Below, piece by piece: positions 4,457 through 38,101 of a stretch of 48,908 bases of DNA. The stretch is from a virus. Location: positions 1 through 48,908 of the IMG/VR virus record IMGVR_UViG_3300041411_000157. The stretch is one strand, 5' to 3'. The notes below the pieces were generated by a model. The model did not search any database and was not told the DNA's origin. It saw only the letters and a program-made list of their open reading frames with translations. The position numbers and the translations under genes are program-made. Each line of letters opens with the position of its first letter. Position 1 is the first letter of the stretch.

Positions 4457-5599
4457 GTGAGCTATCCAGCTACCAACATCATCCGGATTAATGCCCGGAT
4501 CAGCCCGGCCGGCCTGGGCAATGCGAACTTTGCAAGCGCCATGCTGTTCGCTCCTGAAACCGAACTGCCGGTTGGCTTTGCCATCGACACGTACCGGACG
4601 TATTTCACGCTGGTGGCTCTGTCGGAAGACTTCGCGGACACCACCGAGACCTACAAGGCGGCACAGCGCTGGCTTGGCGGCACTCCGGCCACCCGCGAGC
4701 TGAAGGTGTGGGGCGCCGCAACCGCAGACGCAACTCGGGCCGCAACCCTGAACAAAGCCCGGAACATGCTCTGGTGGTACTGGACCATGTGGACTGCACC
4801 TATCTTGGCGGTCAAGGCAGATGTGCTGGCGATCGCGCAATGGTGCGAAGACAACACCAGTATGTTCATCGACAACCAGACCGGCGCATCGGCGGCCGAG
4901 ATCCGCGACCCGGGTGACGTCGACGATATTGCCACTCAACTGACGACCGCCGGCTTCCGCCACGTCTACACCGCCGCGCACGCCACTGATGCGTATTCGG
5001 GTTCGGCACTGGCCAAGCACTTCGCCGCGGTGAACTACAGCGCCGACCGGTCGACCATCACTGGCGAGTTCAAGAAGTCGCCGGGTGTGCCAGCCGAATC
5101 GTTGAGCGGTACCGCCTACACCGCGATGCAGAGCGCCACGAAAAAGGCAACGTTCTACACCGTCGTGGACAACCAAGGCTCCATCGACTCCGGCCGCTGG
5201 TTGAATACCTTCACGCACAGCACATACGGCGAGTTCATCGACGATGTGATCAACCTCGACGCGTGTGTGAATTTTCTGACGACCTCACTCTACAACGCAG
5301 TAGCCAACCAGCCCACCAAACTGCAGCAGACCCCGGTCGGCCAAGCAGTATTGATCGGCGCCGCGCGGGCAACCATGCAGCAGTTCATCAGCAACGGCTA
5401 CCTGGGTCCGCGCAATTACCTCGACCCGGACGACGGCCTCGAAAAGTACACCGCTGGCTTCGAGATCCTGACCAAGCCCGAAGACATCCTCGACTTGTCG
5501 GAAGCTGACCGCAACGCCCGCAAGTCTGCGCCTCTGCGCATCCGCCTGTTCCGCGCCGGCGCCATCCACATTGTTGACGTTGATCTCGACGTTTATTGA
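4457..5599 (+). CDS. Contractile tail sheath protein (DUF3383)
   Basis: A 380-residue protein starting at GTG 4457 with GGAG upstream. It resembles the DUF3383 sheath family: an N-terminal strand MSYPATNIIRINARIS, a central alpha/beta region, and a C-terminal domain with RNYLDPDDGLEKYTAG and the closing strand GAIHIVDVDLDVY. The sheath surrounds the tube and contracts to drive it through the cell envelope. With the tube gene next to it, this identifies a myovirus-type tail. Confidence 0.88.
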   Translation: MSYPATNIIRINARISPAGLGNANFASAMLFAPETELPVGFAIDTYRTYFTLVALSEDFADTTETYKAAQRWLGGTPATRELKVWGAATADATRAATLNKARNMLWWYWTMWTAPILAVKADVLAIAQWCEDNTSMFIDNQTGASAAEIRDPGDVDDIATQLTTAGFRHVYTAAHATDAYSGSALAKHFAAVNYSADRSTITGEFKKSPGVPAESLSGTAYTAMQSATKKATFYTVVDNQGSIDSGRWLNTFTHSTYGEFIDDVINLDACVNFLTTSLYNAVANQPTKLQQTPVGQAVLIGAARATMQQFISNGYLGPRNYLDPDDGLEKYTAGFEILTKPEDILDLSEADRNARKSAPLRIRLFRAGAIHIVDVDLDVY

Positions 5600-6588: not shown

Positions 6589-8074
6589 CAAAGTTCTGAA
6601 GTCGTTCCTGATCGGCATCGGCTATGACACCAAGACCCTGGAAGCGGGCGACAAGAAGATCAACGCCAGCCTGAACGGCATTAAGTCGAGTGCTCTTGGC
6701 ATCTCGGCGGCATTAGTCGGGGCCTTCGGTGCCGGCGCCAGTGCAATCGTGGGCGTCGCCGATCGCGTAGACAAGCTGGCCATGTCCACGCAGAACCTGC
6801 GCACGTCACAGGCTGCTGTGTACAACTACGGGAACGCGATAAAGCTGATGGGGGGTGACGCCGCCGATGCGGTCGATACCCTGCAGCGCTTCGAAGAGAT
6901 CCAGAACAACCTACGCCTTAAGGGGGATGCCGGCCCGATCGGCGACCTCGCAACCGCTGGCATTGATGTGAGCTCGCTCTACGCCACGAAGACCGGCGAA
7001 GAGTTCATGCGAGCCCTTGCGGAGATGATCCCGCGGCTGGATGAAGGACAGCGGGCTCAGGTTCAAAGCTCTCTCGGCCTGTCTGACGGCGTGTTCCGCT
7101 CGCTGTCTGGCGGGGTTGAGAAGCTCGACGAGACCATGAAGCGTGCCAGCGGGCTCACGGGCAGCGTCGATCAGCTGACTGACAATGCAAGGAAGCTCGC
7201 AGAAAACTCCGCTGAGTTCAGCCTGATCCTCGAGGGCGTCAGCAACGAGCTCTCTGAGAAGTTCATAAAGAGCCTGGTAGGGGCTGGTAGCGCGCTGAAT
7301 AACTTCCTCAAGGACCATCGCGAGAGCATCAGCGGTGCAATCGACTACGCCTCGGATAACCCGGCCGCTACTGCGACCCTAGGTACGTCAGCAGTTGCGT
7401 CGGTTGTTGGTGCAACGCTTGCGAAGCTTGGCCTGACATCGATTGGCGGACTGATCAGCAAATCTGGCACTGCCGGCGTTGCCATCACGGGAGGCGCAAT
7501 AGGGTCAAACCTGATCAACAGGTCGCTGAATGAAACCGTACCTGGCTACGGGGACGCCTCCCGTGGATTCGACGAGCTGCTCAAGGATGTAACTGGACTG
7601 GATCGAATCCAAGGTCCGATGGAGCTCCTTTTCGGCGGTGATGGAAACTCAACCCAAAGCAACAGAGACATCAGGTACGAGAAGCCGCTGGAATACACAG
7701 GACAGGTAATCCGGTCACAGGAGGACGTCGACTATCTGGATCAGCGCGACGGTCCAGCCACCGACGTGCAGATAGGCACTGAGCAGCGAGAAGCTGTTCC
7801 TGTGCCGGTGCAGCGGCCAGTTGAGATCATTTATGGCGATAGGTCGGCAGCCGACATCATGCCGCCCGCCGAAACCACCAGTCGCGAAGATGAGCGGGCC
7901 GCCAATGCCGATGCAATCGCAGACGCGTTCAGCCGGACACCAATAAAGCTCGAAAACCAGCTGGGGTTGACCGTGCAGCTCGACGGCCAGGCGCTTGAAG
8001 CAAAAATAACGCAGGTCAATGAGCGGCAAAACTACGAAACCCTGGGTGACCTGAAGACCACGACGGAGCGATAA
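6581..8074 (+). CDS. Tape measure protein
   Basis: A 497-residue protein that sets tail length and is chaperoned by the two preceding products. The start ATG 6581 (MASKVLKSF) is chosen over upstream in-frame codons because those lie inside the chaperone. An N-terminal helical part is followed by glycine/alanine-rich hydrophobic stretches (about 40-65 and 265-320) and a charged C-terminal helix region. It is short for a tape measure, which predicts a short tail of roughly 70-80 nm if the usual 0.15 nm per residue holds. Confidence 0.8.
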   Translation: MASKVLKSFLIGIGYDTKTLEAGDKKINASLNGIKSSALGISAALVGAFGAGASAIVGVADRVDKLAMSTQNLRTSQAAVYNYGNAIKLMGGDAADAVDTLQRFEEIQNNLRLKGDAGPIGDLATAGIDVSSLYATKTGEEFMRALAEMIPRLDEGQRAQVQSSLGLSDGVFRSLSGGVEKLDETMKRASGLTGSVDQLTDNARKLAENSAEFSLILEGVSNELSEKFIKSLVGAGSALNNFLKDHRESISGAIDYASDNPAATATLGTSAVASVVGATLAKLGLTSIGGLISKSGTAGVAITGGAIGSNLINRSLNETVPGYGDASRGFDELLKDVTGLDRIQGPMELLFGGDGNSTQSNRDIRYEKPLEYTGQVIRSQEDVDYLDQRDGPATDVQIGTEQREAVPVPVQRPVEIIYGDRSAADIMPPAETTSREDERAANADAIADAFSRTPIKLENQLGLTVQLDGQALEAKITQVNERQNYETLGDLKTTTER

Positions 8075-15464: not shown

Positions 15465-15492
15465 TGAGTCTCAAGCCTTGGCGAGAGACTCA
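15465..15492. other. Stem-loop between convergent genes
   Basis: TGAGTCTC (15465-15472) and GAGACTCA (15485-15492) are perfect 8-base inverted repeats with a 12-base loop. It lies between the rightward tail operon and the leftward glycosyltransferase-like gene and overlaps the latter's stop codon. There is no T tract, so termination would be weak or factor-dependent. Confidence 0.5.
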
Positions 15493-17520
15493 TGAGCGAC
15501 TCGGATCGGGTGGTGAGAGTGCCTTTTGAACGGAATCAATGTGCAAATCATCTAGGGTTACGAAACCTCGACCCGTTGACCACCCTCCCAAACCAAAGGA
15601 AATTCTGAATGGGGTACCGTCCGAGACATAATAAGTTACAACACTCTCGTTTGAGCCTTGAGGAGTCATTATTGGAAACAGAACTCTCTTCGAATGTATA
15701 GAAATATGGCCCGAGTTGGCTTGATCCTTTCCAGGTTCTGATTTCCAGCTAAGAGTAGCCGCAATCCGATATAATCCACTGGGCAAATTTATCTCTTGAG
15801 ATGCTAGCCCCGAATCGGTGAAGGATTCAGAATGAACACTGCGCCTTTCAGTATCAATATTTCCTTCACCATAACGATCAAACTTAAAGTCTGATGCAGC
15901 ATATACATTTCTAATAGTATAAAGCGCTTTGTTCCCGTAGTCGGTTACTTCTACTTCCAGCCCATTAGCGCCAGCGCCAAATGAGATCCGACAATCAGAA
16001 ATCGAAGTAGGGACTCGCCAACCGAATACAATTGCCCATTGCGCTGGATTTATACCAAATTTCAAGCCGTCCCGATAAAGTACGGACAGCGCTCCAACAA
16101 TAGGTAGCCAATCGTTTTCCCCCATAAGGATTGTTGCAGGGCCTTCGCACTTATGTATTGCGGATGAAATCTCTTTAGAGAGTTTCAGTACAGCAGAATT
16201 AGGGGTCTTATAAGTTAATAGAGTATGGCCGATATCATGTGAGCTGCCATGGATGAAAAATAGAATTGCCATTGTTGCGAACGTACTAATGGCCAGTAAT
16301 CGAAGTTTTGAATCGAGCGCCCCTTGAATCAACAATGTCCATGCCAGCAGAATAAACACACTGATTATTGGTATGAATGTAATGCTATGAGGCAATATCG
16401 GTCCGACGACTTTAGTTAGTGCGTACAGGTAGGTAATAAGCTGGAGGCAAACTATAAAGCTTAGAATTAAGGCGAATTTATATTTTTTTAGGTAAGCTAG
16501 CCACAAGCCCAAGAACGCAAGAAAAATTAAAACTCCACCCGCTATCATAGAATAATTCTCTGACGGCAAGTTTTCATAAAACAGTTTATTGCCTAATACT
16601 GGCTCCCCCATCAAAACCGCCAATGCACGAACCGCTTCTATCAATGTATGCTCGCCAGGCCCTCTTGACAGAAAAAAAGAGATTATCCGCTGGAGGTTTT
16701 CGAATTCCAATAGAGGTGGTAGCCAAAGCACTATACAAAAAACAATGCCAGCCGCAGCATATATATAATCACTATGCGATGGTTTTCTCTCTATACAAGA
16801 TAGCACGAAAGCACTTAGCCCTAAACTAACCACGGGCAGCCAAAAAGCAACATGCATTTGCGCCACGTAGGTCAGTACAAGGCCAAGTAATAGAAAATAC
16901 TTAATTCCGTTCAATGCAACAAAACAGGCAAGACTAATCGCAAGTATCCACGGAAAGATCGTCGCCAAGGGCAGCAAGACATCATAAAACACACCCGCTC
17001 CCAGTGCGGAATACGAATAAATTACTGCTACCGAAATGAAAATACCGGCCGTCTGACTATTCGAAAGTCGCGTAATCACAAACACTGTAGCGGTTAAAAA
17101 AAACACATTATAGGCAAGAGTTGCCGCCATTAAAATCTGTTCACCTCCTCCAGATAAGTAATACCATGGTAGTAAGAGATAATAGTTTATCGGCCCCGGA
17201 TGAGCCCATCCAAAACGAGACGATATCCCGACGGTCTGTTCAAGCTTTGAGGCGTGATACATGTCAACTAAAAAAATACCATAATCGCTAGCCCAGTACA
17301 TCTTAAGGCCATATCCATCCAATAGCGTTAAAAAAATAATTATTGCTCCCGCTCCTAGTAGCAGAAAAGGAATACAGCTCAGTACTCTCCGAATAAATTG
17401 GAGGTCTACATTTTTGCTAGTGTTCGATATGGTGTTCAAGTTTGTATGGCTTCCCAGTTGCCCAGTATCACATCTATTTTTAGTTTGGCGGAAGTATACA
17501 CAGACGTGGTGATTTTTCAC
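15490..17520 (-). CDS. Polytopic membrane glycosyltransferase-like protein, probable lysogenic conversion gene
   Basis: A 676-residue protein with an N-terminal cytosolic part, about ten or more hydrophobic segments (from about residue 48 to 435), and a soluble C-terminal beta-rich domain (about 440-660) ending in a jelly-roll-like FGLGGWSTGRGFVTLDDLHI. The first loop has SDYGIFLVD and GWAHPGPINYYLLLPWYYL, resembling the acidic loop of GT-C sugar transferases. The gene stands alone on the opposite strand next to the tail fibre genes and is much richer in A+T (16441-16500 has 19 G/C of 60), so it was probably acquired. It may alter O-antigen. GTG 17520 is the first in-frame start; the ribosome site is weak. 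Confidence 0.65.
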   Translation of the reverse strand: MKNHHVCVYFRQTKNRCDTGQLGSHTNLNTISNTSKNVDLQFIRRVLSCIPFLLLGAGAIIIFLTLLDGYGLKMYWASDYGIFLVDMYHASKLEQTVGISSRFGWAHPGPINYYLLLPWYYLSGGGEQILMAATLAYNVFFLTATVFVITRLSNSQTAGIFISVAVIYSYSALGAGVFYDVLLPLATIFPWILAISLACFVALNGIKYFLLLGLVLTYVAQMHVAFWLPVVSLGLSAFVLSCIERKPSHSDYIYAAAGIVFCIVLWLPPLLEFENLQRIISFFLSRGPGEHTLIEAVRALAVLMGEPVLGNKLFYENLPSENYSMIAGGVLIFLAFLGLWLAYLKKYKFALILSFIVCLQLITYLYALTKVVGPILPHSITFIPIISVFILLAWTLLIQGALDSKLRLLAISTFATMAILFFIHGSSHDIGHTLLTYKTPNSAVLKLSKEISSAIHKCEGPATILMGENDWLPIVGALSVLYRDGLKFGINPAQWAIVFGWRVPTSISDCRISFGAGANGLEVEVTDYGNKALYTIRNVYAASDFKFDRYGEGNIDTERRSVHSESFTDSGLASQEINLPSGLYRIAATLSWKSEPGKDQANSGHISIHSKRVLFPIMTPQGSNESVVTYYVSDGTPFRISFGLGGWSTGRGFVTLDDLHIDSVQKALSPPDPSRS

Positions 17521-19300: not shown

Positions 19301-20473
19301 TCATGCTGACTCCTCCTTAGGGAGTTGAACCGGCGTCCCGAACATTTCCACGGCGCGATTGCCGGAAGTGTCGTTCTCGCTGGGTATCCATCGGCCGTAG
19401 ACTCGGGCGATCATAGTCCAGTCCTTGTGACCCATTTGTTTGGCGACCCACATTGGGTGCTCTCCGGCCGAAAGCATCATCGATGCGTATGTGTGCCGGG
19501 TCTGGTAGGGGTTCCGATACCGAACCTTCGCCTTCCTGAGCGTCGGTATCCAGAAGCTTTTGCGAATAGCCTGATCGCCGTCGAACGGCTTGCCGTATCG
19601 CGAGTCATGGAAAATCACGTCACCTTCTATATAGGTGTGCACCTTCTGAGCCGTCAGCGCCTCCAGCGCCATTGGCAAAAGCTTCACGCTCCGAATCCCC
19701 GCTGCCGTCTTCGGCAACTCTGCTTCCTTGGCCGCTCTGGTCAGTCCTCGCGATATCCGTATCTCCCCACGCAACCAATCCACATCCCCCCATTCAACTG
19801 CAATGAGTTCGCTTGTGCGCAGCCCGGTCCATATGGCGAACTGCAACAGGTTCCGGTATTGGCCGTCGGTGCCGGCCAGAATCAGCCGCTGTTCCTCAGG
19901 CGAGAACGGGTCGATCTCGTCCTCCGTCTTCGGCTTCTCCCTGACCGAGTACGTCCAGCCCGCCATAGGGTTGATCTCGATCAGTTCGTCATGCACCGCA
20001 TCGTTCAGCGCCGACCGTAGGCAGCTCTGTACGTTGGACAGTCGCTTGTTCGAAGCGTCCATGCTCGCCATAGCCTCCTTGACCATCTTGCGACTGAGCA
20101 GCACCAGGGGGTGGTCGCCCAGCTTCGGCACCAGAACCCCGTCGATGATTTTCCGATAGCCATCGATCGTACTGGCCTTCAGACCCTTCTCTTTCTTCTC
20201 CAGCCAGCTTGCGAGGTATTTCGACAGCGGGACTTGCCCTGTCTGATATCCAAGCCGATTGGCTCGCTTGGACTTGGGGAAGGTGGCCAGATAGTCGAAC
20301 GTGCCGTTGTAGATCGCCAGTTCGATAGCCGCCTTGTGCTGCTCGGCGCGCTTCAGATTAGCGGGGCTGGGCTCAATTGGGAGCCGCTCGCGGCACTGGG
20401 CGCCCTCGAGCATGAAGGTGATCTCAATGCTGCTCTTGGACGCCGCTCGAACGCCGCTGCGCTTTCCACCCAT
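19301..20473 (-). CDS. int: Tyrosine integrase
   Basis: A 390-residue site-specific recombinase. The N-terminal arm-binding part (GVRAASKSSIEITFM, DUF3596-like) is followed by a SAM-like core-binding domain (about 80-180) and the catalytic domain with Arg219 (TGLRTSEL), Arg326/His327 (YQTRHTYAS), His349 (MGHKD) and Tyr359 (ARVYGRW). The excisionase reads into its 5' end by 121 bases. It inserts the phage at attP just downstream. Confidence 0.92.
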   Translation of the reverse strand: MGGKRSGVRAASKSSIEITFMLEGAQCRERLPIEPSPANLKRAEQHKAAIELAIYNGTFDYLATFPKSKRANRLGYQTGQVPLSKYLASWLEKKEKGLKASTIDGYRKIIDGVLVPKLGDHPLVLLSRKMVKEAMASMDASNKRLSNVQSCLRSALNDAVHDELIEINPMAGWTYSVREKPKTEDEIDPFSPEEQRLILAGTDGQYRNLLQFAIWTGLRTSELIAVEWGDVDWLRGEIRISRGLTRAAKEAELPKTAAGIRSVKLLPMALEALTAQKVHTYIEGDVIFHDSRYGKPFDGDQAIRKSFWIPTLRKAKVRYRNPYQTRHTYASMMLSAGEHPMWVAKQMGHKDWTMIARVYGRWIPSENDTSGNRAVEMFGTPVQLPKEESA

Positions 20474-25613: not shown

Positions 25614-26483
25614 TCAGAGCGCTCCGCTAACCCGCTCATACTCGGAGTCAAGCAGCGAGTCGTCTTGATCTTCATCGGTGGCCGCCGACAAAAAGGCCGT
25701 GACGATCGGAGCGACGGCCTTGGCCTGAGTGATCAGGAACAAATGCCCGTCGTCGATGACGTGCAGTTCGGAGTTCGGAATCAGGTTGGCCAGGATGCGC
25801 ATGTTGACCAGCGGGATCAGTGGGTCATCGTTGCCGGCCAGGACCAGGGTCGGCTGCTTGATTCGGTGCAGCCAGTGGATTGAAGTCCACCAGTAAACAG
25901 CCGCCATCTGGTAGTAATAACCTCGGCCGCCTGCCGACTTCATCTTGCTGGCGTGAGCGGTGGCCAGCGTTTTGTCGTATCTGAACGATCCGCCGTAGAT
26001 GTCCGGCGCGATCTCCGCCCCGTGCTCGGGGTTGGTGTAGCGCAGCGGACTGGCCATCAGCGCCAGGACTTTCGGGGATGGCGGGACGCTGAGCACGCCG
26101 GCCGAAGTCGCAGCCAGGATCAGCTTGCCGCAGCGCTTCGGGTGATCGTGAGCGAACTGCTGGGCGAGAAAGCCGCCCCATGAAACGCCGATCACATTGA
26201 CCTGATCGTATTCGAGCGCATCCAGCATCTTGGCGACGGTCCTAGATAGGCCCTTGAAGCTGTATGGCAGGAGCGGAGCAGGAGAGCCGCCAACGCCCGG
26301 AGCATCGAAAGCAATCACCTCCTGATCCGGGTCGAGCTCCTGCACGAAGGGGAGAACCAACTCAAGACTCGCGCCGATACCATTGAAGACCATCAACGGA
26401 GTCAGGTGAGGCGTGCCGGGGCGTACCGCAGTGCGGATGGATTGGCCGTCGATGTTCAGTGTGCGGAAAACAAACGCCTTCAT
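25614..26483 (-). CDS. phaZ: Alpha/beta hydrolase resembling PHA depolymerase PhaZ
   Basis: A 289-residue protein that matches, as I recall it, the Pseudomonas intracellular medium-chain polyhydroxyalkanoate depolymerase along its length: FRTLNIDGQSIRTAVRPGTP, FNGIGASLELVLPFVQ, TSIHWLHRIKQPTLVLAG. The nucleophile is Ser101 in GVSWGG, with Asp220 and His247 (DDGHLF) as partners, almost the same numbering as the known triad. The enzyme would cleave stored PHA granules to hydroxyacids in the cytoplasm; there is no signal peptide. It has its own GGAG site and shares the direction of the retroelement and methyltransferase genes. Substrate not proven. Confidence 0.82.
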   Translation of the reverse strand: MKAFVFRTLNIDGQSIRTAVRPGTPHLTPLMVFNGIGASLELVLPFVQELDPDQEVIAFDAPGVGGSPAPLLPYSFKGLSRTVAKMLDALEYDQVNVIGVSWGGFLAQQFAHDHPKRCGKLILAATSAGVLSVPPSPKVLALMASPLRYTNPEHGAEIAPDIYGGSFRYDKTLATAHASKMKSAGGRGYYYQMAAVYWWTSIHWLHRIKQPTLVLAGNDDPLIPLVNMRILANLIPNSELHVIDDGHLFLITQAKAVAPIVTAFLSAATDEDQDDSLLDSEYERVSGAL

Positions 26484-26543: not shown

Positions 26544-27704
26544 TTATTTCTTTGGGTATGTCTTTGTCAGTGCGCCATTGACGCTGTGACCGCGTTTCAG
26601 AACGACACGAGCCAATTTCTCCCGGTCTTTTTCACTGTGGCTGGCCTGGCTGAGCAGGCCGAAATAGCTGTTGGCGGTTTCGCGAAGATCCTCGGCCGGT
26701 GCCGCAGCGGTCCGTTTGAGGGCCTGAGCCAGCGAACGCTTTCGGGTTGATCGCCGCCACGGCTTGATGACGTGGCCAACGAAGTCGACGCCGCGATCTA
26801 CCGGCTGAAGGATGGTCTTCGATGGGTTTAACTTGGCGCCGAGGCTTGGCAGGAATGCTTCGACCTCTGCCAGCCAGGCGTTGAGTTGTTGCGGCGACTC
26901 ATGCAGGAACACGAAGTCATCTACGTAGCGGACGTAATGCTTGGCGCCGAGCTTGTGCTTGGCGAACTGGTCCAGCGCGTCGAGGTAGACGTTGGCGAAG
27001 AACTGCGACGACAAGTTGCCGATCGGCAGTCCGAGGTGCGCAGGTTGCGCGGTCAGGCGTTTGTGCTGCGGCACCCGGTTGAACAGATGGGCCGGACTGC
27101 GTACCTCGTAGTCTTCGCGAGGGTCGTGCATCAGGATCTGTTCAGCGAGTGCCAGCCACCACGGCTCAGTGATCTTGGCGGCGAGCTGCTTGCGCAGAAC
27201 CTCTTTGTCGATCGCGACGAAGAAGTTGGCCAGGTCGCACTTGAGGTAGAAGAGCGGCTTCGACCAGTTCTGGCTGGCGCTGCGGATCTTAGCCTCAAGC
27301 CGGGTGGCGGCGTACAACGTGCCGCGCCCAGGAATGCATGCGCAACTGTCCGCTATGAAGCTGGCGTAGAAGCGCGGTGCCACTCGGTTGTACAGAAGGT
27401 GGTGGACGACGCGATCCCGGAACGCTGCAGCCCAAACCTCGCGGGCTTTCGGTCGGGTGACCACGAAGCATATCGAGCGGCCTGGCCGGTAAGTGCCGGT
27501 GATCAGGTCGTCGTGAAGTTTGATCAAGTTGCGCTCCAAGTCCATTTCGAAAGCCAGCGCACTGGCGCTGTTGCGCTTCGTGCGGCGGCAGTCGTAGTAG
27601 GCCTGGACAAGATCGCTGAACGGGTAGGGACCAACAGTCGAATCTGCGGACGGGGCGGACACGGAGCTCGTTGTTCTTGTCGTTGTTGTTCTGATTGCCA
27701 TCAT
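26544..27704 (-). CDS. Reverse transcriptase of a diversity-generating retroelement
   Basis: A 386-residue reverse transcriptase. DGR-type motifs are clear: RRTKRNSASALAFEMDLE, RDRVVHHLLYNRVAPRFY, FYLKCDLANFF (catalytic Asp), GLPIGNLSSQFFANVYLD and YVRYVDDFVF (catalytic DD, about 248-257). It copies the template repeat RNA with errors at adenines. The conserved N-terminal domain leaves no start downstream of the template repeat, so the start (ATG 27704 or 27701) lies inside the template repeat. The first 20 or so residues (rich in Thr and Ser) are template-encoded. Confidence 0.92.
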   Translation of the reverse strand: MMAIRTTTTRTTSSVSAPSADSTVGPYPFSDLVQAYYDCRRTKRNSASALAFEMDLERNLIKLHDDLITGTYRPGRSICFVVTRPKAREVWAAAFRDRVVHHLLYNRVAPRFYASFIADSCACIPGRGTLYAATRLEAKIRSASQNWSKPLFYLKCDLANFFVAIDKEVLRKQLAAKITEPWWLALAEQILMHDPREDYEVRSPAHLFNRVPQHKRLTAQPAHLGLPIGNLSSQFFANVYLDALDQFAKHKLGAKHYVRYVDDFVFLHESPQQLNAWLAEVEAFLPSLGAKLNPSKTILQPVDRGVDFVGHVIKPWRRSTRKRSLAQALKRTAAAPAEDLRETANSYFGLLSQASHSEKDREKLARVVLKRGHSVNGALTKTYPKK

Positions 27705-27744
27705 CGAAGTTCATGTTGAATGCGTTGTTGGCGGAGCGCTGCGA
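27644..27744 (-). repeat. DGR template repeat (TR)
   Basis: 101 bases sharing fixed ends with the two variable repeats. On the coding (minus) strand it is rich in AAC codons; reading it in the target frame gives SANNAFNMNFDDGNQ then NNNDKNNELRVRPVR. The template differs from the variable repeats only at adenines (12 and 17 sites). The final 27 bases, CGAGCTCC through CCGTCCGCAG, are identical in all three copies and act as the homing-initiation (IMH-like) part. The repeat overlaps the 5' end of the reverse transcriptase frame. Confidence 0.93.
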
Positions 27745-27915
27745 CCTATCGTGCTATCTACGTCGCCAAGCCGAAGGCAGAGCCGATCAGCGAGGAAACT
27801 GCGCGAGACCTGCACGGACGCTTTAGACCGTCGGTATCTCTGATGCGCATGGCGGTGACCCAGAGGTCAGCGGCACGACCAGATTCAATTCGCACAGACC
27901 TGAAAGCCGTAACTC
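27745..27915. other. Noncoding gap between Avd-like gene and TR
   Basis: 171 bases with no convincing gene on either strand. It probably forms the leader of the template RNA, transcribed leftward from upstream. No clear promoter or terminator was seen. Confidence 0.5.
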
Positions 27916-28272
27916 TCAGGTGGCGGGCGCGGTTGGGGTGGAGCGTTTCCAGGCGTTTGCCTGTTTGCCAATCGAGGTGGTGACCTCTATTGCATTGGCA
28001 TGCTGCGGAACGCTGATGAATCGGCTCTCTTTGAAAAGCCGCATCAGGAACTCGATCACCTGGACCTTCTCGACCAGCAAGGTCAGGTGTGGGCGTTTGT
28101 CAGGCGTCGCGTTGGCCCGAGCGATCAACATCAGCACGTCGATGCACTCATCGATGACGCGCTTCCCGAGCGACTGCTTCAGGTCTCGGGGAATGTTGCG
28201 AGTGAGGTTCGTGGCCATCTGGAGCAGGCCGAGTGAAACCTTGTAGATCTGCAAGTCCGTGTGCATCGCCAT
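27916..28272 (-). CDS. avd: DGR accessory variability determinant (Avd-like)
   Basis: A 118-residue all-helical protein of the Avd / four-helix-bundle type: HTDLQIYKVSLGLLQMATN, IPRDLKQSLGKRVIDECID, RPHLTLLVEKVQVIEFLMRL. Avd forms a pentameric barrel that binds the reverse transcriptase and template RNA. The start at 28272 has GGAG 9 bases upstream. It lies between the variable gene and the template repeat, the standard DGR order. Confidence 0.85.
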   Translation of the reverse strand: MAMHTDLQIYKVSLGLLQMATNLTRNIPRDLKQSLGKRVIDECIDVLMLIARANATPDKRPHLTLLVEKVQVIEFLMRLFKESRFISVPQHANAIEVTTSIGKQANAWKRSTPTAPAT

Positions 28273-28293
28273 GGGCGCGCTCTCCAAGAGCAA

Positions 28294-28311
28294 CCGGCCG
28301 CAAGCGGCCGG
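28294..28311. other. GC-rich stem-loop after variable repeat 1
   Basis: CCGGCCGC and GCGGCCGG (8-base stem, loop AA) lie 30 bases beyond the 3' end of variable repeat 1 on the coding strand. Known DGR targets have a short hairpin or cruciform just after the variable repeat; this could serve that role. With no T tract it is a poor terminator. Confidence 0.5.
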
Positions 28312-28325
28312 ATTAAATGAGCGAA

Positions 28326-28946
28326 TTAATCAATCAATTGACTGCGGACGGGGCGGACACGGAGCTCGCTGCCCTTGCCGTAGAGGTCCTGATAGCCATC
28401 ATCGAAGTACATGAGGAATGCGTTGTTGGCGGAGCGCTGCGAAGATGACCAGTACCAGGTGTCTTTGAAGGCTTCGGCGCCACCTTCTTGGAAGGCTGCC
28501 AGCATGGTCTGAGCCGGTGATTCTTCGGTGTACAGCAGACCGACAGGCTCGCTGTTCGGGTTGTCGCCGCTGCGCCCGTACTGCCAGTTCGTTTCGGTGG
28601 TCGGTTTGAAGTGGCGATACTGCAGCTCTTGCACGTCGCGCGCCGGGATCGCCCAGTCGTTGAAGCCGCCGATATCCAGAGCCAGCACCTGCTGTGCCAG
28701 TTCGCTGCTAGCCGCTGCCATCGCCTCGGTGTTAGCGCGGCTGTTGGTGAAGCTGTCAGCACCTTCGATCTTCTCGCCATACTCGCCCCAAGCACCGCTC
28801 AGTTCGTGCGCGGCGCCGGCGGTGATGTTCAGGTAGCGCTTGCCGGTGTCCGGGTCACGGTTAATGCCGGAGAAGAACCCGCCGCCGAAGGGCTGGCCGA
28901 TTTCCGGGATGGTCACTGCTGGTGCTACTTGAGCTGCTGCGGACAT
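28326..28946 (-). CDS. DGR target protein 1 (DUF1566/C-type-lectin-like)
   Basis: A 206-residue protein whose last 40 residues contain variable repeat 1. The body has DUF1566-like, formylglycine-enzyme/lectin-fold features: GGFFSGINRDPDTGKRY, LALDIGGFNDWAIPARDVQEL (about 95-115), DTWYWSSSQRSANNAF, and the end ELRVRPVRS. Variable residues in the repeat fall at template Asn codons. ATG 28946 has AGAGG. There is no signal peptide or fibre-like stalk, so how it reaches its ligand is open; it may be a virion surface protein. Confidence 0.85.
   Translation of the reverse strand: MSAAAQVAPAVTIPEIGQPFGGGFFSGINRDPDTGKRYLNITAGAAHELSGAWGEYGEKIEGADSFTNSRANTEAMAAASSELAQQVLALDIGGFNDWAIPARDVQELQYRHFKPTTETNWQYGRSGDNPNSEPVGLLYTEESPAQTMLAAFQEGGAEAFKDTWYWSSSQRSANNAFLMYFDDGYQDLYGKGSELRVRPVRSQLID
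28342..28442 (-). repeat. DGR variable repeat 1 (VR1)
   Basis: 101 bases aligned without gaps to the template repeat. There are 12 differences, all at positions where the template coding strand has A. They change Asn codons to Leu, Tyr, Asp, Gly, Ser and others within the 3' end of target gene 1. Confidence 0.93.
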
Positions 28947-28971
28947 GATCTTTCCTCTTTTCGAAGGCAAC

Positions 28972-28991
28972 AAAAAAGGCGCTGCTGCGCC
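28972..28991 (-). terminator. Rho-independent terminator after target gene 2
   Basis: On the minus strand GGCGC, loop AGCA, GCGCC is followed by six Ts (28977-28972). It lies 32 bases after target gene 2 and 45 bases beyond variable repeat 2. It could also be the hairpin needed for target recognition at VR2. Confidence 0.75.
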
Positions 28992-29022
28992 CGGTGCCGA
29001 TCAAGAACGAATGATTGAAGGA

Positions 29023-29634
29023 TTAAATAAAGAATCTGCGGACGGGGCGGACACGGAGCTCGACGCCCTCGACGCCGTAGTGCTGAAAGCCAACAACGAA
29101 GTGCATGTAGAATGCGTAGTTGGCGGAGCGCTGCGATGAGGACCAGTAGTAGCAGTCCTGAGCGAAGACCTCAGGACAGCTCAACCAGCCCTGATACAGC
29201 TCGGCGGCGGCCGGCAGGTAGAAATCATGATGACCATCGGCCTGGTACTCGGCGCAAGCATCGGCTGCTGGATACTTCCTCTCGTCGTCGTTGCCAATCA
29301 GAACCTGGGTGTTGGTGTAGCCGTCGGTTTTGCTGAGGCCTTTCACCTCAACTCCACGGCCGCCCCACTCAAGACTGCCGACATCCCTGGCGGCGATGAT
29401 CAGGTAGTGCGCAGGAACATCGCCGCGAGCCGCAACCAGTCCGCCATTGAAGCCGCCTTGGCCGGGCCACTCAGCGCCGAGCGCTGGGATGTTGGTTGGT
29501 GCGATTGGCTGGACATTCGCCGCCGGCGGCAGCACCAGGGCAAACGTGCTGGCCAGCGCCAGCTTTGCCAGTTGTGACGCTGGCATCTTGATCGTGGTGT
29601 CACCGTGTTTGAGTGTGATCATTTCGGGTTTCAT
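29023..29634 (-). CDS. DGR target protein 2 (DUF1566/C-type-lectin-like)
   Basis: A 203-residue protein with variable repeat 2 at its C-terminus. The N-terminal 30 residues (MKPEMITLKHGDTTIKMPAS) include a predicted strand and hydrophobic helix but no clear signal peptide. The body has GGFNGGLVAARGDVPAHYLI, HHDFYLPAAAELYQG, and YYWSSSQRSANYAFYM, ending ELRVRPVRRFFI. It shares the fold signature and repeat with target 1 but differs in the N-terminal half. GAGG precedes the ATG. A terminator separates it from target gene 1. Confidence 0.85.
   Translation of the reverse strand: MKPEMITLKHGDTTIKMPASQLAKLALASTFALVLPPAANVQPIAPTNIPALGAEWPGQGGFNGGLVAARGDVPAHYLIIAARDVGSLEWGGRGVEVKGLSKTDGYTNTQVLIGNDDERKYPAADACAEYQADGHHDFYLPAAAELYQGWLSCPEVFAQDCYYWSSSQRSANYAFYMHFVVGFQHYGVEGVELRVRPVRRFFI
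29036..29136 (-). repeat. DGR variable repeat 2 (VR2)
   Basis: 101 bases, gap-free with the template. There are 17 differences, all at template adenines (coding strand). The match to the template continues 4 bases further at the 3' side (GAAT before CTGCGG on the plus strand). Confidence 0.93.
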
Positions 29635-37335: not shown

Positions 37336-38064
37336 TTATTTACGGCGCGGAGAACGCCTGACGGTCGACCACCAGAAAACTCGGCCAAGCATTCTTACGT
37401 CGTCGGTGAATTGCTCAGCTGTCATGACTTCGTCGGGGAAGTCTTCAGAATTCTCGCTGCGAATTCTCACGCTACCACCAGGTAGTCGGTGGAGGTATTT
37501 CACCCTGAGCATACCCAATTGGTTGAAGGCGTAGATCTCGCCGTCAATGATTGAGGTGTCATCCAGATCGAAGCCAATCGCTGCGCCATCCAAAATAAGA
37601 CGCTCCATGCTACGGCCTTTAATCCTGGCACAAGCAGCGCTCTTGGCCTCAACGCCCGCTGCCTTTAATGTGGCACCGCTGAATCTGAGCTTCCTATCGG
37701 CAATTTCAACGACTTCAGACATACCCTGTCCACCGGCAAATTCGACTTCAGCAAAGTACGGTATTTCATACTCGTCGTCATCTAAGGATTCGCCTTCCTC
37801 CCACGCGTCCATATCCCCCAGCAGCTCAGCGTTCGCCTCGATGTGAGTCAGCCGCCCCTTCATCTCGCCGATACCATCAGAGAGCCATATGGCGCTCACG
37901 GAGCAGGCGTGGGCGATCTTCGCGATATGAGCGCTCTGTAGGTTCTTCCCTGTCTCAAGCTGGGAGATAACTGGCTGCTCAACGCCCACAAGCTCGGCGA
38001 GCTTTTTTTGCGTCAGGCGAGCGCCTTGGCGAGCCATTTTGATGCGGTTGGCAAGAGTATTCAT
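37336..38064 (-). CDS. cI: CI-like repressor with LexA-type (S24) autocleavage domain
   Basis: A 242-residue lysogeny repressor. The N-terminal HTH (about 5-60) contains RLTQKKLAELVGVEQPVISQ. The C-terminal S24 domain has the cleavage site EFAGG (Ala110-Gly111), nucleophile Ser152 (GRSMERL) and Lys189 (LRVKYL), so RecA-stimulated self-cleavage and SOS induction are expected. The ATG at 38064 is only about 9 bases from the -10 box of PRM, so the message may be nearly leaderless as in lambda. It probably binds the ATAAGC-type palindromes on both sides. Confidence 0.9.
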   Translation of the reverse strand: MNTLANRIKMARQGARLTQKKLAELVGVEQPVISQLETGKNLQSAHIAKIAHACSVSAIWLSDGIGEMKGRLTHIEANAELLGDMDAWEEGESLDDDEYEIPYFAEVEFAGGQGMSEVVEIADRKLRFSGATLKAAGVEAKSAACARIKGRSMERLILDGAAIGFDLDDTSIIDGEIYAFNQLGMLRVKYLHRLPGGSVRIRSENSEDFPDEVMTAEQFTDDVRMLGRVFWWSTVRRSPRRK

Positions 38065-38073
38065 CTTCACAAC

Positions 38074-38101
38074 GTTATAAGCCCTCTTATCTTCTTGCAA
38101 A
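38074..38101 (-). promoter_or_regulatory. Repressor maintenance promoter PRM
   Basis: On the minus strand TTTGCA (38101-38096), 16 bases, TATAAC (38079-38074), with the repressor ATG 9 bases further. It shares sequence with the divergent PR promoter, and an operator covers its -10. Confidence 0.65.
38077..38090. promoter_or_regulatory. CI/Cro operator between cI and cro (site at PRM)
   Basis: ATAAGCCCTCTTAT, matching the operator palindrome with one mismatch. A further half-site ATAAGC lies at 38101-38106. Confidence 0.7.

Follow-up and report, generated by a model that had tools for sequence, protein, structure and literature searches.

A 48,908-base virus record, IMGVR_UViG_3300041411_000157, analysed here at its full length (the window), carries on its minus strand a diversity-generating retroelement (DGR) cassette organized as one unit in the order VP2-VP1-avd-RT-15 RNA-TR-RT, where VP1 and VP2 are the target proteins, TR is the template repeat and RT the reverse transcriptase. 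The TR (27644-27744(-)), with 31 A among its 101 nucleotides, aligns without gaps over its whole length to two variable repeats (VRs) on the same strand, VR1 (28342-28442(-)) and VR2 (29036-29136(-)). VR1 differs from the TR at 12 positions and VR2 at 17, and every one of these differences (12/12 and 17/17) falls where the TR has A, for which the hypergeometric chance is 1.2e-7 and 3.3e-11, respectively. The 29 differences comprise 14 A>T, 11 A>G and 4 A>C changes, and the three repeats have positions 1-18 and the GC-rich 27 nt of positions 75-101 in common. Up to 19 TR codons contain an A, ten of them being AAC or AAT, and among these A-bearing codons AAG alone can become a stop. When the TR region was used as query against the entire record (E ≤ 0.01), these three copies and no fourth were returned, and no VR lay in the tail-fibre genes. 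An earlier, sequence-only reading of this DNA had reported the same repeat coordinates, the gapless alignment, the 12 and 17 differences confined to template A, and the identity of the 27-base 3′ segment and the 5′ end, all of which were reproduced exactly, and its description of the RT and Avd open reading frames (ORFs) held as well. That reading had not remarked on the RT start within the TR, the RT-15 RNA, the early-region position of the targets or the RT-less relatives.

The RT, a DGR-type protein of 386 aa (26544-27704(-)), contains the motifs IGNLSSQ and YVDD and matches RVT_1 and phrog_1423 (E 2.3e-118); its matches in NCBIfam stayed below threshold. [IVL]GxxxSQ is a signature of DGR RTs. 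The nearest solved sequence is likewise a reverse transcriptase, 8ub7 (E 2.5e-35), which we take to be that of phage BPP-1. The accessory protein Avd (27916-28272(-)) was recognized by Pfam bAvd (44.2 bits, cut-off 40) and by phrog_3206, 'Avd protein of DGR' (E 3.5e-30), and its NCBIfam Avd match (2e-12) lies under the cut-off of that model; the ORF was listed from a TTG at 28293, and by eye the ATG at 28272 is the likelier start. A full-length RT-15 structured RNA (RF03018; 27742-27932(-)), scoring 182 bits against a gathering threshold of 82, takes in the end of avd as well as the three opening bases of the TR. Among 14 other loci scanned for this RNA, it was present in all seven that bear an RT (Magia included) and in one of the seven that lack it (L140, in our numbering of loci).

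The TR contains the beginning of the RT reading frame and its start codon or codons, the ATG at 27704 corresponding to TR position 41. A survey of 85 RT-bearing loci (the window, L004-L007 and L012-L091) found the distance from the TR to the first conserved RT motif to be constant in all 85 and an in-frame ATG inside the TR in 83. In 49 of them every in-frame ATG, GTG and TTG is internal to the TR, so that, with ordinary start codons assumed, translation of the RT must start within the template in at least 49 loci. Overlap of TR and RT was already described as a class in 2012: in the excerpted text of the DiGReF account (PMC3521204), group 3 DGRs have a TR and an RT ORF that overlap at the 5′ end of the latter, as they do here. 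In the RT coding sequence, the first 150 nt beyond the TR show a relative synonymous change of 0.65, against 1.05 for the part from 240 nt onward (p 4e-4), and the consensus-fold z was lowest of 15 windows at +30 to +200 (-2.98; 25 shuffles) and reached +1.33 at -30 to +140. These values are no more than suggestive of a structured RNA embedded in the first ~150-200 nt of RT coding sequence (27439-27623(-)). The 240-300 nt window showed a relative synonymous change that was lower still (0.43), few paired positions of the RT 5′ coding fold changed on both sides, and a cruder synonymous count gave no clear signal. The RT-15 leader and the TR-internal RT start make for a compact system in which to ask how a single RNA can be messenger and template at once.

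Repeat turnover in related loci

The sequence-only reading had held this DGR to be intact and probably active, and had named invariant VRs in related phages, substitutions at non-A positions and a disabled RT active site as the findings that would speak otherwise. Related loci were collected with the RT as query, using the best 80 of 214 IMG/VR stretches, and a genome search gave 52 loci, 28 of them titled Pseudomonas. The IMG/VR loci, four named phages and the window make up the full set of 85 loci and 167 TR-VR pairs, duplicates and L071 included, in which 2288 of 2362 TR-VR differences fall at a TR A. Removal of duplicates, of L071 and of one divergent third VR of L089 left 78 loci with 152 VRs; with the first and the last two columns left out, 2107 of 4494 TR-A sites (46.9%) differed in this set versus 28 of 10,402 other sites (0.27%), a 174-fold higher rate at A. 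Of these VRs, 151 are distinct, so the repeats are not invariant among relatives; substitutions at non-A positions are rare, and the window RT has its YVDD motif. An in-frame stop was present in a single one of the 167 VRs (VR1 of L032). Across 99 sequences, the TR went through 150 changes at 101 sites and the RT through 6073 at 1000, a per-site rate ~4 times lower for the TR, and the exact TR of the window occurs in 11 of the 85 loci.

Close pairs display the same pattern. L076 and L077, from two metagenomes according to their contig names, have the same TR and differ at 32 positions in VR1 and VR2, 31 of which are TR-A sites; outside the repeats they differ at 31 positions, 30 of them clustered at 2565-2745 and one at 6704, with none between. 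The two prophages of one IMG genome, again judging by contig names (L025 and L027), differ at 32 VR positions, all at TR A, and at nine elsewhere. All 25 VR differences between Haboob and phPA-G are also at TR A, yet these phages differ at 72 positions outside the repeats. Several other close pairs have identical VRs, which would be natural if one phage had been sampled twice. The claim of an intact, probably active DGR is supported by RT, Avd, TR and two targets with open frames in the window, and by constant TRs, A-site VR turnover and near-identical flanks among its relatives. We conclude with high confidence that the window holds a complete, probably working DGR.

One locus of the family, L071 (TR 4961-5061), departs from TR constancy: its TR has been overwritten by VR-like sequence, with 19 A left, and both VRs are nearly equal to it. 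It seems to be a burned-out DGR, or else reflects an assembly fault. Two or three A-site changes in the TR were also found on the own branches of L072, L040, L041, L073, L024, L083 and L088. Over the whole tree, TR changes per site amounted to 1.87 for A, 1.90 for T, 1.28 for C and 1.01 for G; because A sites change no more than T sites, general self-homing of the TR, by which it would overwrite itself, was dropped as an explanation and is not claimed.

Homing signals, targets and known systems

Inspection by eye revealed a GC-rich hairpin with an 8-bp stem and a 2-nt loop 30 nt 3′ of VR1 (28294-28311(-)), a candidate target-recognition hairpin, and a GC-rich 5-bp hairpin followed by a T run 44 nt 3′ of VR2 (28978-28991(-)), which is terminator-like and under the criterion of at least 6 bp within 80 nt 3′ of a repeat that was used for counting. 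By this criterion, a hairpin accompanies 72 of 82 distinct VR1-class 3′ flanks and none of the 85 TR flanks; the background is 8.4% of random 80-mers and 2.1% of shuffled flanks. Homing in BPP-1 requires a GC-rich hairpin 3′ of the VR, as stated in the excerpted part of PMC3240598, and the loops seen here by eye are not of the GRNA type given there.

The two VRs form the C-terminal coding ends of VP1 (206 aa; 28326-28946(-)) and of VP2 (203 aa; 29023-29634(-)), the first gene of the cassette. Both proteins match phrog_4245, for which no function is assigned, as well as Lcl_C, below the Pfam cut-off (VP1, E 1.1e-7, 32.6 bits versus 34.9; VP2, E 1.4e-5). A profile search of solved structures with VP1 placed the C-terminal domain of Legionella Lcl (8q4e) first (E 0.0098), and the same domain, which belongs to a bacterial protein, was the first, weak Foldseek match of the VP1 model (E 0.11). 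Comparison of that model with 8q4e gave Z 7.0 over 115 residues at 16% identity, with a fimbrial protein ahead at Z 7.5, and values below 8 may reflect a mere common arrangement. The profiles and the model point to a likely lectin-like fold for the targets. Folds of the Lcl_C kind bind ligands, and VP1 and VP2 probably bind variable ones. In L017, L028, L078, L128, L148, L151, L155, L163, L174, L180, L189 and L194, an additional small Lcl-like gene holds a further VR, 1.6-6.1 kb upstream of VR2, and Aurca01 and Cruim01 (L336, L337) have a further VR ~8 kb away.

The structural genes of the window are of the myovirus type (sheath, baseplate, portal and terminase) and were identified at 1-15.5 kb and 44-47.5 kb; an integrase (19301-20473) and a CI-like repressor (37336-38100) are also present. 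The host element of the DGR is a temperate contractile-tailed phage of Pseudomonas type. The cassette sits outside the tail module, in the early/recombination/integrase region, flanked by RecT/YqaJ genes (31-33.5 kb) on one side and by a block of methyltransferase, HNH and integrase genes on the other.

The DGR of BPP-1 (brt, avd, mtd) is likewise phage-borne, with an Avd, A-specific differences and a C-terminal VR, and its hairpin 3′ of the VR has a candidate counterpart here; its RT is 31.9% identical to that of the window. Unlike BPP-1, the window has two targets outside the tail module, an RT-15 RNA leader and a 27-nt 3′ end that is the same in TR and VR, and it has no separate TR-RT spacer, because the RT frame starts inside the TR. 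DGRs with multiple VRs are known, and the excerpted text of PMC3521204 lists Pseudomonas fluorescens WH6 with two VRs, an entry that probably belongs to the family described here; the same excerpts speak of no RNA leader and of no HNH gene in place of the core, and mention that in another bacterium a mutated RT is accompanied by distal targets. A potential DGR has been reported in Burkholderia phage Magia (excerpted part of PMC7883833), with a target annotated as a lectin-fold protein. The TR and VRs of Magia did not turn up in the repeat scan used, the only search made for them. The RTs of Magia, SC_8_H2H8_2017, Cruim01, Haboob and phPA-G are 67-92% identical to that of the window, and the last four phages share its order of VR, VR, avd, TR and RT; RT-15 was detected in all three that were scanned (Cruim01, Haboob and Magia).

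By analogy with BPP-1, a transcript of the TR region with its RT-15 leader would be bound by RT and Avd, and reverse transcription would insert random bases opposite each template A. The resulting complementary DNA would take the place of the 3′ end of each target gene, beginning in the 27-nt GC-rich segment, and signals 3′ of each VR that are absent at the TR, such as the hairpin, may guide the homing. Each round would redraw as many as 19 codons that contain A in two binding proteins, which are probably C-type-lectin-like, with no change to the TR. Beyond what the cited papers describe, these steps follow what is known of BPP-1.

Several observations weigh against a working DGR or against parts of this scheme. 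At least one non-A difference occurs in 48 of the 167 VRs, and L032 and L033 differ from each other only at two adjacent non-A positions of VR1. Hairpins of at least 6 bp accompany just 20 of 68 VR2-class flanks and one of nine extra VRs. Within the repeat there is no mismatch of the kind that gives homing its direction in BPP-1 and, the 27-nt 3′ segment being identical in TR and VR, the direction would have to be set beyond the repeat. On the side of the targets, both Lcl_C matches fall under the curated cut-off, and model confidence is middling for VP1 (predicted local distance difference test, pLDDT, 65.7; predicted template modelling score, pTM, 0.70) and poor for VP2 (pLDDT 50.9). Finally, it is from its relatives that the window copy itself is judged probably active.

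Other explanations of the cassette were compared with a complete, working DGR. Plain duplication of the repeats followed by drift or recombination, with no reverse transcription, would find a precedent in the ability of repeats to recombine and in L264-L266, which resemble the product of a crossover between VRs, but it is refuted by the A-specific spectrum of the 29 window differences and of the 152 VRs, and we give it practically no credence. It is also very improbable that the cassette, though intact, is inactive in the window phage and that its VRs are frozen from past activity. Damaged DGRs with surviving targets do exist among the relatives (the overwritten TR of L071, and several RT-less loci with clean VRs described below), but the window lacks none of the parts, its TR is of a common form and neither VR has a non-A mismatch, so that the repeats show no drift after the last homing. 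A third explanation concerns the targets, which might be receptor-binding tail proteins through which the DGR alters the host tropism of the phage, as it does in BPP-1. The ligand-binding nature of Lcl_C-like folds would fit this role, and tail structural proteins are among the targets of virus-borne DGRs in the excerpted text of PMC8144416. We nevertheless consider it doubtful, since the targets lie between RecT/YqaJ and methyltransferase/integrase genes, away from the structural genes and outside the tail module, which makes a BPP-1-like function at the tail tip less likely; the tail-fibre genes have no VR, and homologues of VP1 and VP2 are present in other phage groups, including 286-kb PA5oct-like phages.

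Relatives without a reverse transcriptase

In several relatives, HNH endonuclease genes of several types take the place of TR-RT, and often of avd too, with the targets persisting and mostly with a C-terminal RT relic retained (L009 (4933-5424), L094, L097, L122, L138, L140, L161, L264-L268, L272, L273 and L276). Pfam or PHROGs assign the proteins of L009, L094, L138, L161, L140 and L122 to HNH endonucleases; that of L097 has no Pfam match and resembles the L140 protein. L140 keeps avd and RT-15 intact, its TR stopping after ~23 nt where the HNH ORF follows, while in L264-L266 the HNH gene lies 3′ of VR2 and VP1 is gone. In U7, the stretch between the VR end and the RT end has simply been deleted. 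Aurca01 and Medea1 both have VP2 and VP1, with a NUMOD4-HNH gene 3′ of VR1; neither whole record has an RVT_1 match, in the stretches examined avd is missing and the RT is reduced to residues 358-386 or 358-381, and no TR was found, the TR-like sites of both records being VRs. Distinct IMG/VR VR sets numbered 96 with an RT and 12 without one in which the last VR is followed by at least 600 nt and by an HNH gene no more than 1.6 kb away; three more were RT-less without HNH (L136, with just 612 nt behind, L285 and L331) and four were too short. These counts are not frequencies, as the RT-bearing sets were found partly by their RT and L264-L268 by their HNH protein (five HNH protein queries were used). 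One slot appears to be filled by either the HNH gene or the DGR core, the two being swapped by crossover at the VR 3′ end.

To score the orphan VRs, each was compared with the closest of 32 TRs, at 67-70 non-A sites each. Non-A mismatches were 0 and 1 in Aurca01, 0 and 2 in Medea1, 0/0 in each of L097, L094 and L140, 1/0 in L138, 2/2 in L161 and L122, 2 in L136, 0 in FBPa42, 1 in PA5oct, 2 and 3 in U7, 4 in PMG1, 5-13 in eight other PA5oct-like phages and 14 in D3. Among the genome loci, L262 had 1, L257 and L263 had 6, and L261 had 16; L249 has no site. Differences at A sites ranged from 11 to 21 per scored VR. The RT-less phages of L220-L232 (nine 286-kb PA5oct-like phages, D3, PMG1, U7 and FBPa42) have orphan target VRs that match the TR of Haboob, in some cases with hardly any mismatch beyond the A sites, the D3 copy deviating over the 5′ part of the VR.

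Diversification of the VRs of the RT-less Aurca01, Medea1, L267, L268, PA5oct, FBPa42 and U7 in trans, by the DGR of a co-resident phage, would account for part of this pattern, although we regard it as unlikely. RVT_1 was absent at E ≤ 10 from all 15 RT-less records among 17 named ones (Haboob and Cruim01 do match), yet in several of their VRs the non-A sites agree wholly or almost wholly with a TR from a different phage, with 0 to 3 mismatches in Aurca01, Medea1, FBPa42, PA5oct and U7. The third VR of Aurca01, ~8.5 kb off, has no mismatch at 68 non-A sites and 14 A differences (the further VR of Cruim01, 0/68 and 10), and the VR of PA5oct is clean despite private substitutions in the gene body. 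Among loci with one NUMOD4-HNH junction, the adjoining VR differs at 11-17 of 30 A sites and at 0-1 of 68 others, in 10 pairs of five VR alleles that show 0-14 differences over 600 nt 3′, and four loci share the VP1 body to within 2-7 of 300 nt, a pattern compatible with VRs rewritten once the RT had been lost. Pre-existing VR alleles can explain the pattern under the reading of alternative occupants, because the VP1 body of the RT-bearing L058/L271 equals that of RT-less Aurca01 over 500 nt and because L264-L266 lack VP1 and have HNH after VR2, an arrangement in which crossover at the VR 3′ end can place existing alleles beside HNH. Further points against rewriting in trans are the decayed VRs of the eight other PA5oct-like phages and the count of genomes, 7 of 398, that carry a target but no intact family RT of their own.

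These 398 genomes represent the genus Pseudomonas; 38 of them matched the RT at 1e-8, 31 of these better than 1e-150, and 37 matched VP2. The seven VP2-bearing genomes without an intact RT of the family are G041, G108, G154, G283, G333, G361 and G394, of which G283 keeps a 54-residue relic. Taken more broadly, the DGR enzyme core might be a shared good among Pseudomonas phages, repeatedly displaced in its TR-RT part, often along with avd, by HNH homing-endonuclease genes, with the VRs of RT-less phages, even of lytic 286-kb ones that have acquired a target gene, rewritten in trans by the template RNA and RT of a phage sharing the cell; we put this forward very tentatively, as a rather improbable generalization. 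Among the titles and abstract beginnings searched, none dealt with HNH replacement of DGR cores or with RT-less targets in Pseudomonas phages, a search that mostly did not cover full texts and leaves such absence unproven. PMC11256456 (Cruim01/Aurca01) contains none of the terms reverse transcriptase, retroelement, diversity-generating and RNA-directed DNA polymerase, and none of the four terms sought occurs in PMC10175458 (Medea1).

The family and neighbouring genes

The cassette of the window is a well-formed case of a known system, and its interest lies in the surrounding family more than in this copy. The family is large and tractable, as reflected by its RT in 31 of 398 genomes of the genus, and offers natural experiments in the form of loci alike but for their VRs, phages minus the RT and one overwritten template. 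It makes testable whether DGRs act on the genes of other phages and what role DGR targets have outside the tail.

Elsewhere in the window, a 676-aa ORF (15490-17520(-)) between a tail-fibre assembly gene and a chitinase-like, perhaps lysis, gene matched nothing at E ≤ 0.001 in PHROGs, Pfam and NCBIfam. An alpha/beta hydrolase gene (25614-26483(-)) adjoins the RT; its product matches the NCBIfam poly(3-hydroxyalkanoate) depolymerase model (434.5 bits, cut-off 250.6), and it is possibly a phage-borne metabolic gene. By eye, an ORF resembling this hydrolase also lies beside the RT relic of L097.

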